Assembly (NCBI GenBank): GCA_905250025.1
Contig: CAJNOJ010000088.1
Span: forward strand, 248,001 to 312,000
Source of the DNA: Adineta ricciae
Taxonomy: Eukaryota; Rotifera; Eurotatoria; Adinetida; Adinetidae
DNA length: 64,000 nucleotides
Direction: 5' to 3'
Made by a program: the position numbers and the translations under genes. The notes beneath the pieces are model-generated. The model did not search any database. It had not been told where the DNA came from and was given only the letters and a program-made list of their open reading frames with translations. Positions within the stretch are counted from its first letter, which is position 1, and every line of letters begins with the position of its first letter. This document shows, piece after piece, positions 42,039 through 45,000 of this stretch.

Positions 42039-45000
42039 ATGCTTAAAGTTACCGTTCATAATGCTGAACACATACCCAACGTCGAACGTTTTACTAGTGT
42101 GGATCCGCTGGTTCGACTAATTTTTCAAGGTATGTACGTGTCTAAACTTTACTAAACATATTTATTCATTTCTGTGGGCGGTTAATGGTGATATAAAAGA
42201 GAATAGAGTGTATGAGAGATGTTTTATGATTGATGTAACACAGTGCACACGATGAGTGACGTGAAAAACGATGGTGTTATGAGAATTATTGTGCATAATG
42301 CTGAGAAAGTACCACTGACCGAACGGTTTCGAGGATCACCCGATCCATATGTGAATATTTTTTGTTATGGGATAGTTTGATTGTTTTCAATTGAATTCAA
42401 CGTAGTCATTCGTTTTCTTGTCGATTAGGAGTGAAAAAACAAACAAACTGGCAACGCTCAACATGTGATCCCAAATGGGATGAAGTAAATCTGACTGTGA
42501 TTTTTGTTAATTTTTCTCTTATCAATCGGATTTTAGACACTTGATTTCCCGTTGAATGGTGTACCCATTCAAAACAATGATATTCTCGAAGTTCAGTTGA
42601 AAGATCATGAAACTATTGGGTCAAATAAGTAACTATCGACTGAGTATGGCATTTATCTGTATGACTCTATCGGATACATTATTAGACTCATTGGGCAAAG
42701 TACAGTACCGTTGAGTGAAGTACTGCGTGTTGGTACGATCAAACGTCGTCTCGTTCAGCTAATGAATCCTCAAGGTGTCGTTCTCGAAGCGGTAAGTTTC
42801 TTAACAAGAGAAGATCTTTTCTATTTTGAACGATAGACGAAACTATACATTACATTGGAATACGTTTCACCTACGGGTGGTGGAAAAGTACCAACAAATG
42901 GAAAAGCCGGTAAGGAAGAATAAATACGAGTATATGAGTATCGAAGTGTATGTCTTCTTAGCAACCGATTCAAATCAATTCGATGATGTACCTCTGCAAA
43001 ATGGCGGTGACACATCCTGGCAAGCAGATTCTACAGCTGATCTTGCATTTAAACGACAAAATAAACCACGATCAACAAAACCTCAAGATTTCCAAGTGAG
43101 TTTGACCATTGATTTTGTTGAAACTTATGAGTGAATTTCAGATTCGAATAAAAATTTTTCAAGCTCGACAATTGGACGGAAGTAATCTACATCCGGTGTG
43201 TCGGGTGCGTGTCATTGGAGACGTTAAACAAACAAAAATTCAAAAAGGAACAAATCAACCGTATTTCAACGAAGTCTTCTTTTTTAATGTTCATATGTCT
43301 GAAGCCGAATTGTGTGATGAAATGATCGAATTTGAAGTTTGCAATTCACGAACACTTCGATCGGATATGAAAATTGGAACGTTCAAAATGGATATCAACT
43401 ACATTTATGCGCAAGCAAAACACTCCATCAATCGAAAGTGGTTGTTGTTGAGTGATGATGATGATAAAATGTCCGGTTCAAAAGGTTATCTGAAAGTAAC
43501 AGTGAACATCCTAGGACCAGGCGATGAAGCACCGGTATATGACTATTCGATCGATTCAATAGAACAACGTTTTGTATCGGATGTTTTTAGGCGCAAGAAA
43601 ATGATGGCGATGATGACGATATTGAAAGTAATCTACTAAGACCAGCTGGTCTTATGCTTCGGCCAGCAACGTTTATTTTGAAAGTCTACAAAGCCGATGA
43701 TTTACCAAGAAGTTCGTTTTGTTCGAAGGAACAGCTAAACATTGTTTCTCTCTCTCTCTCTCGTGATTGTAGTGGATAGTGCATTTTTGCATGGAGTGAA
43801 GAAGATCTTTCATGCTACGGAAGATATCAAAGAATTGATCGATCCATACGTCAATTTTTCATTTGCTGGTCAGCAAGTGTCATCAAAAATTGTTTACACA
43901 TGTTCACATCCGGAGTACAATCAAGAACTTCGACTCGGCCTTAAAGTAAGTCGCTGTGGTCTTTGATCGGATTGCTTTCATTGCCATGTAGTTTCCATCG
44001 ATGTGTGACAAAATTACATTGACTGTTATGGATTGGTAAGTTAAAATTTAGTTTACATTTTCTGTCGACTCGATACATCTTGAGAATATGACTATAACAA
44101 ACGTGACATACATGTACAGGGATCGACTACAATTCGATGATACAACGGGCTGCGCTTTGCTTAACATTAATCGATTATGTGATGATCGAGAAAATGGTAT
44201 TGATGAACGTTGATTTTGTTTTACTTTCGTATTGCACATTTATATGTTTTCATTCGAATACGAATTCATTATCATTGGCTGGGTATTTTATCTCACCTTT
44301 CATTTCATTCAAGGGACAAATTCACACGTGATGAAAAGGCTGGAACGACTTCTCTTAAGATAATACTCATCAGTCAATTGAGCGATAAGGGTACTCATTC
44401 TTAGAGTTCGACATGCTTCGTAGATTGAGACTAGCATTCCATTGATGATTAGATCTGCTTGTATAGAAATGCTTTGTTTTCAATATATGTTTTGCTTTGA
44501 TGATGCTGAAGGGATCGGTTTACGCACAGCGATATGATTGGTGTTGGTTTAATTGATGTTTTCACGAAAGATAATGGTAGAGATCAGAGTGAATGTGAAG
44601 GCATACTGATTCGATTTGTTTTTCAGGCTTTCTACCAACATTTGGTCCGAGCTGGATCAATCTTTATGGTGCGCCACGAGAATACTCCGATGTTCCGACT
44701 GCATTGGACGATCTAAACAGTGGCAAAGTAAGTTGACCAGAAAGAATCACCTTCATAGTTCTGATCTCTGACTTTTCTATCGTAGGGTGAAGGTGTCGCT
44801 TATCGTGGCCGAGTGTTTGTTGAATTACAAACTATTCTTGGTGAAACACCATCGGAACCAATCGGTGAAATATCAAATTCGGATCTTGTTCGAGTATTGC
44901 CATATCAAGCACGTAAAAAGTACAAACTCCATGCCGCATTTCTTGATGCATGCATGCTATACGAACATGAATCGACGCTGGAATTCGAAATGAGTATCGG

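Follow-up and report, generated by a model that had tools for sequence, protein, structure and literature searches.

A Putative Cluster of Mutually Exclusive Exons for the C2C Calcium-Binding Loop in a Ferlin Gene of the Rotifer Adineta ricciae

Three consecutive exons (E1, E2, and E3) of a ferlin gene in the bdelloid rotifer Adineta ricciae encode the same stretch of the C2C domain, and they probably form a cluster of mutually exclusive exons. Each mature mRNA would then contain one of the three between the constant exons 43992-44035 and 44627-44727. The array lies on the + strand of the window, that is, the whole stretch of 64,000 nucleotides analyzed (G000:C88:248001-312000; positions are those of the window); the genome searched comprises 130 Mb in 1,033 contigs. 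The mutually exclusive layout had been proposed in the initial annotation of this DNA, and it is supported by the apparent homology and matched phases of the three exons, by their exclusivity in frame, and by their conservation in a second gene copy (on contig C57).

Ferlin proteins aid membrane fusion in response to calcium. Judged from its sequence, the gene with the array is a dysferlin/myoferlin-like ferlin. The FerI motif (PF08151), with 39.6 bits against a cut-off of 28, occurs at 43454-43537 (G000:C88:291454-291537), between C2B and C2C, a feature of ferlins. With a query of 238 residues (C2C and the following domain), the matches among PDB sequences are with myoferlin (E = 1.2e-72), dysferlin (4.2e-66), and otoferlin (4.1e-40). 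No relatives of the exon at 44786-45208 were found among viral contigs and genome contigs, as expected of an animal gene. The gene has a close pair of copies and one distant copy, presumably a pattern that would fit a bdelloid.

Anatomy and reading frame of the exon array

The constant upstream exon (43992..44035) ends with GATTG, followed by GTAAGT, and holds the first two bases of a Trp codon (D444 and W445 are the myoferlin equivalents at this end). After intron i0 (44036..44119, 84 nt, donor GTAAGT) comes E1 (44120..44196, 77 nt), of a type also found in the gene copy on contig C196. Intron i1 (44197..44313, 117 nt), with the weak donor GTATTG, separates E1 from E2 (44314..44390, 77 nt), and intron i2 (44391..44511, 121 nt), with the weak donor GTACTC, separates E2 from E3 (44512..44576, 65 nt), in which the acceptor AG is followed by GGATCGG. 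Intron i3 (44577..44626, 50 nt, weak donor GTAGAG) leads to the constant downstream exon (44627..44727), which aligns with both myoferlin and dysferlin.

Three AG..GT segments had been delineated earlier between 44036 and 44626. The coordinates of E1 and E2 stand, as do their length of exactly 77 nt, their AG/GT boundaries, their open and compatible frames, and the flanking exon borders at 44035 and 44627; the third segment starts at 44512 and not at 44530. With a start at 44530, E3 would read C-D-M-I-G and lose the loop motif, while the start at 44512 completes the Trp codon and reads W-D-R. A longer E3 of 77 nt, with the donor at 44588, was likewise rejected: that GT is absent in C57 by one base, and an intron of 38 nt would be left. 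The donor at 44576 is kept in C57.

All three exons are bounded by AG..GT, free of in-frame stops, phase-compatible, and of a length equal to 2 modulo 3 (with 25, 25, and 21 whole codons in E1, E2, and E3, respectively). Each completes the split Trp codon and starts with W-D-[R/K]-[L/F]; the ungapped nucleotide identity among them is 38-48%. The frame reads through when a single exon, either E1, E2, or E3, is spliced in. With no exon, or with any of the four multi-exon combinations, the spliced test translation stops after 48-56 residues. For a full-length protein, one and only one of the exons must therefore be included, and their exclusivity is enforced at least by the reading frame. The C2C domain scores 45.0, 45.4, and 46.6 bits against the Pfam C2 profile with E1, E2, and E3, respectively, and 32.1 bits without any exon; six control segments inserted at this site, drawn from the ten best-scoring window segments listed in the pattern-free test below, give 32.1-34.1 bits.

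The array exceeds chance. Within the 591-nt region, 11 segments of 50-110 nt are bounded by AG..GT, open, and compatible in phase, and eight of these start at the acceptors 44120, 44314, or 44512; the loop motif is present in all eight and in none of the other three. Among 20,000 dinucleotide shuffles of the region, a W-D-[RK]-hydrophobic start occurs once in 21 and more than once in none; under a looser pattern for loop 3, nine have a single start and none has two. Three starts are present in the real region under either pattern, both patterns having been picked after the exons had been seen. A pattern-free test leads to the same separation. It drew 1,551 other segments from both strands of the window, each of them open, phase-compatible, and bounded by AG..GT; the best of these scores 8 against E1, compared with 15 for E2 and 18 for E3. 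With either E1 or the C196 exon as the reference, none of the 1,551 attains the raw score of E2 or E3.

Loop 3 of C2C in the three exons

In human myoferlin bound to lipid, as resolved by cryo-EM, loop 3 of C2C binds three calcium ions; the contacts are from D444, the backbone of W445, D446, T449, and D452, and those with the membrane from R447, L448, and K450 (PMC12264198). In the same source, loop 1 of C2C contributes D374, D396, and a helix bearing F377 and V381, and, in the C2F domain, F1628, T1629, and R1630 enter the bilayer while E1632 binds calcium. Residues of the rotifer protein were mapped by alignment to myoferlin, with an offset of 51 between the construct and the published numbering that is our own reckoning.

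In this alignment, the constant exons keep the equivalents of D374, D396, F377, V381, and D444, and intron i0 interrupts the codon for W445. The earlier suggestion that the alternative exons would swap a loop of C2C that may set the calcium/lipid response is supported in that the exchanged part maps to the calcium-binding loop 3. At positions 446-452, E1 has D-R-L-Q-F-D-D, E2 has D-K-F-T-R-D-E, and E3 has D-R-F-T-H-S-D. The equivalent of D446 is present in all three, so that calcium ligands are found in both loops 1 and 3. Position 449 is Gln in E1 and Thr in E2 and E3; position 452 is Glu in E2 and Asp in E1 and E3. The FTRDEK of E2 is also the matching stretch in the C2F domain of myoferlin.

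The constant part of the protein would thus give the calcium ligands equivalent to D374, D396, and D444, and the chosen exon would add D446, the residues at 449 and 452, and the tip in contact with the membrane (447, 448, and 450), followed by a conserved GFLPTFGP. Since the residues at 446-452 differ, splicing would pick between one tip that is more hydrophobic and others that are more basic, with slightly different calcium sites. From this content we infer that the three forms may differ in their need for calcium and in their grip on lipids.

The likeness of E2 to the C2F loop of myoferlin may be a convergence. A copying of E2 from the C2F loop of the same gene was rejected, the gene's own C2F scoring 29 against E2 and that of myoferlin 41. 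E3 was also considered as the exon closest to the human sequences, an idea that was discarded: over 20 residues, myoferlin is nearest to E2 (46) and E1 (45), and dysferlin scores 37-40 with all three.

Gene copies, splice signals, and rival readings

A look at other ferlin genes had been called for; within this genome, the array is kept in C57, a single exon is present in C196, and the intron is absent in four distant matches. The copy on C57 shows 95.2% identity across 9.9 kb; in its array, the three exons and all eight splice dinucleotides are kept. In the array exons, 4 of 219 sites are changed (three silent changes and one Lys to Arg): none of 77 in E1, two of 77 in E2 (both silent), and two of 65 in E3 (one silent and the Lys to Arg). 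With six bases trimmed from each intron end, the array introns show 22 differences in 317 sites and three gap events. Intron i0 by itself has 6 substitutions in 80 sites and two gaps. In three flanking constant exons, 19 of 568 sites differ, all 19 silently. Against the introns, the deficit of substitutions in E1-E3 together is significant (p = 0.004), and, in E2 and E3, one amino-acid change is seen where 7.5 are expected (p = 0.004). The comparison supports a coding use of E2 and E3, over a short divergence only, because C57 is a close copy.

The first intron of the gene (42130-42428, 299 nt), after exon 1 (42039-42129), contains an inner ORF (42252-42365) that offers a second C2A-like start besides exon 1 and recalls the alternative exon 1 of human dysferlin. 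Joined to exon 2, it gives 31.5 C2 bits, versus 34.6 with exon 1, and seven of its nine differences from C57 are silent. A GT donor in the right phase is absent from both copies (TATGGGATAGTTTGA), and no such ORF is seen in the short first intron of C196. The segment before the inner ORF (42130-42251) is nearly identical in C57 (one difference by eye), with the array introns differing by ∼7%; it is perhaps a promoter or a conversion tract.

Of nine matched pieces of the copy on C196, eight show 71-77% identity and one shows 87%. This copy has a single 77-nt exon of the E1 type, WDRLQFDDVTGTTLLHVRSICDDRGN, flanked by introns of ∼54 and ∼50 nt (counted from the sequence). Over a stretch of 20 residues, this exon is identical to E1 at 12 positions, to E2 at eight, and to E3 at seven. 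Since E1 is nearer to it than to E2 or E3, either the duplications predate the split from C196, with a loss there, or E2 and E3 evolved fast; our guess is that the duplications are older and that C196 then lost its extra exons. In the region of C196 matching 43773-43945, an additional intron of ∼50 nt occurs inside the C2C exon, with none in C88 or C57. Four more distant ferlin matches (C103, C184, C101, and C170; 33-35% identity) run in one open frame, with no intron, through the site of the array, and their loop 3 has no D-W-D calcium-binding pattern. They make up two more pairs of close copies, from a ferlin gene that has diverged, with KDHAAIQQDRV or KDHAAVQRDRI in loop 3.

Among the 14 other introns compared (delimited by hand, and a part of the gene's introns), 13 are 45-61 nt long and one is 299 nt. 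Introns i0, i1, and i2 (84, 117, and 121 nt) are longer than those 13, and i3 has 50 nt. An exclusion through introns too short for splicing was discarded, i1 and i2 being about twice the ordinary length. The donors of E1, E2, and E3 each agree with the consensus at five of nine positions; 15 other donors of the gene agree at five to eight positions (one of them at five), and the donor of the single exon in C196 at seven. Donors this weak on every one of the alternative exons agree with regulated splicing, and the choice of exon may be under control.

Competing RNA base-pairing, which the initial annotation had proposed to search for, does not come out in the four introns of the two gene copies: pairing is no stronger than in shuffled sequences. 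For six intron pairs in both copies, the duplexes give p = 0.27-0.90 against 300 shuffles each. Folds of single introns and of the whole region give nothing beyond shuffles in either copy; the whole-region folds (z = +1.97 and +1.68) are less stable than the shuffles. Intron elements that pair alternatively, as described for the selector and docking sites of Dscam1 (PMC7404189), are thus not seen in this array.

The observations on copies and splice sites bear on other readings of the array. It is unlikely that E1 is the sole exon in use and that E2 and E3 are relics of old exon duplications, still intact in appearance owing to the recent divergence of the copies. The retention of just an E1-like exon in C196 would agree with this, as would the substitution deficit of E2 and E3 alone (p = 0.055; single exons are nonsignificant, with p = 0.12 for E2 and p = 0.19 for E3). 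However, at 38-48% identity the duplications look old, yet both E2 and E3 are open, with splice sites and loop-3 residues; three of their four changes between copies are silent; and the pyrimidine share of the acceptors does not favor E1 (0.47, against 0.80 in E2 and 0.53 in E3, with 0.73-0.80 in three constant exons). We regard as quite improbable a set of just two true alternatives (for example, E1 and E3) with the third a pseudo-exon: E2 has Glu for the third Asp of the loop, and the power per exon is low, but both changes of E2 in C57 are silent and its FTRDEK is common to the C2F loop of myoferlin, where the Glu is a calcium ligand (PMC12264198).

The least probable, and hardly to be expected, is an array of poison exons whose joint inclusion lowers the amount of ferlin through nonsense-mediated decay, without production of isoforms. 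The early stops after full skipping and in all multi-exon combinations are what such a device would give; it has, however, no need of a C2 loop scoring like a normal one or of changes biased toward silent sites, and every exon is singly in frame. The cluster of mutually exclusive exons is the reading we retain. A more extended version of it is offered tentatively, as possible but somewhat doubtful in its entirety: the ferlin would have a three-position splice switch in a main calcium/phosphatidylserine loop, through an intron placed between D444 and D446, by which splicing exchanges the membrane-touching tip; E2 would lend C2C the FTRDEK tip of the myoferlin C2F; the switch would be older than the split from C196, in which the switch was lost and one state retained; and the copies would divide the work.

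Comparison with known systems

For WebScipio, a cluster of mutually exclusive exons is described by similar length, splice type, frame, and homology, with a minimal score of 15% (PMC3228551). E1, E2, and E3 are adjacent internal exons of similar length (77, 77, and 65 nt), with the same splice type and frame. Scores computed in the same manner are low, 11-16% among the three, at least 15% in one of six directions and under that setting in the other five; the score of E2 with the C196 exon is 16-18%.

Mutually exclusive exons that alter C2 domains have arisen on several occasions in the invertebrate Syt1, Syt34, and Esyt2 genes (Craxton 2010, PMC2823689). There, as proposed here, the alternative exons are homologous to one another and replace a portion of a single C2 domain, and the protein acts in membrane trafficking; those genes encode synaptotagmins and extended synaptotagmins and not a ferlin, and the likeness is drawn without a comparison at the level of residues. 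In human dysferlin, the omission of the cassette exon 17 shortens the β6-7 part of C2C (PMC9333456). This is also an alternative splicing within C2C, probably between loop 3 and FLPTFGP; however, it involves one exon, included or skipped, and would leave loop 3 unchanged. The alternative exon 1 of human dysferlin (C2A variant 1) also yields ferlin isoforms differing in a C2 domain, but it is a first exon in C2A and not an internal array in C2C (PMC2923515, PMC9333456). The ferlin misfire of Drosophila is an invertebrate ferlin with alternative splicing, but its predicted isoforms vary in promoters and in how many C2 domains they have, and the term “mutually exclusive” does not appear in that text (PMC1853072).

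The earlier statement that no such array has been described in a ferlin agrees with the open-access literature, where none was found among the titles and beginnings of abstracts of the matches listed; those on rotifers and mutually exclusive exons concern other subjects. Within these sources, the array is thus of a kind known in other C2 proteins, with none found reported in a ferlin, and it falls at an unusually telling site of the protein.

If the cluster is used as proposed, the rotifer has three natural versions of the calcium/membrane loop of a ferlin C2C in an otherwise constant protein, with the exon array kept in one gene copy and a single exon in a more distant copy. They would be ready-made swaps for studying the part of loop 3 in calcium affinity and lipid preference, in a family that includes dysferlin and otoferlin.
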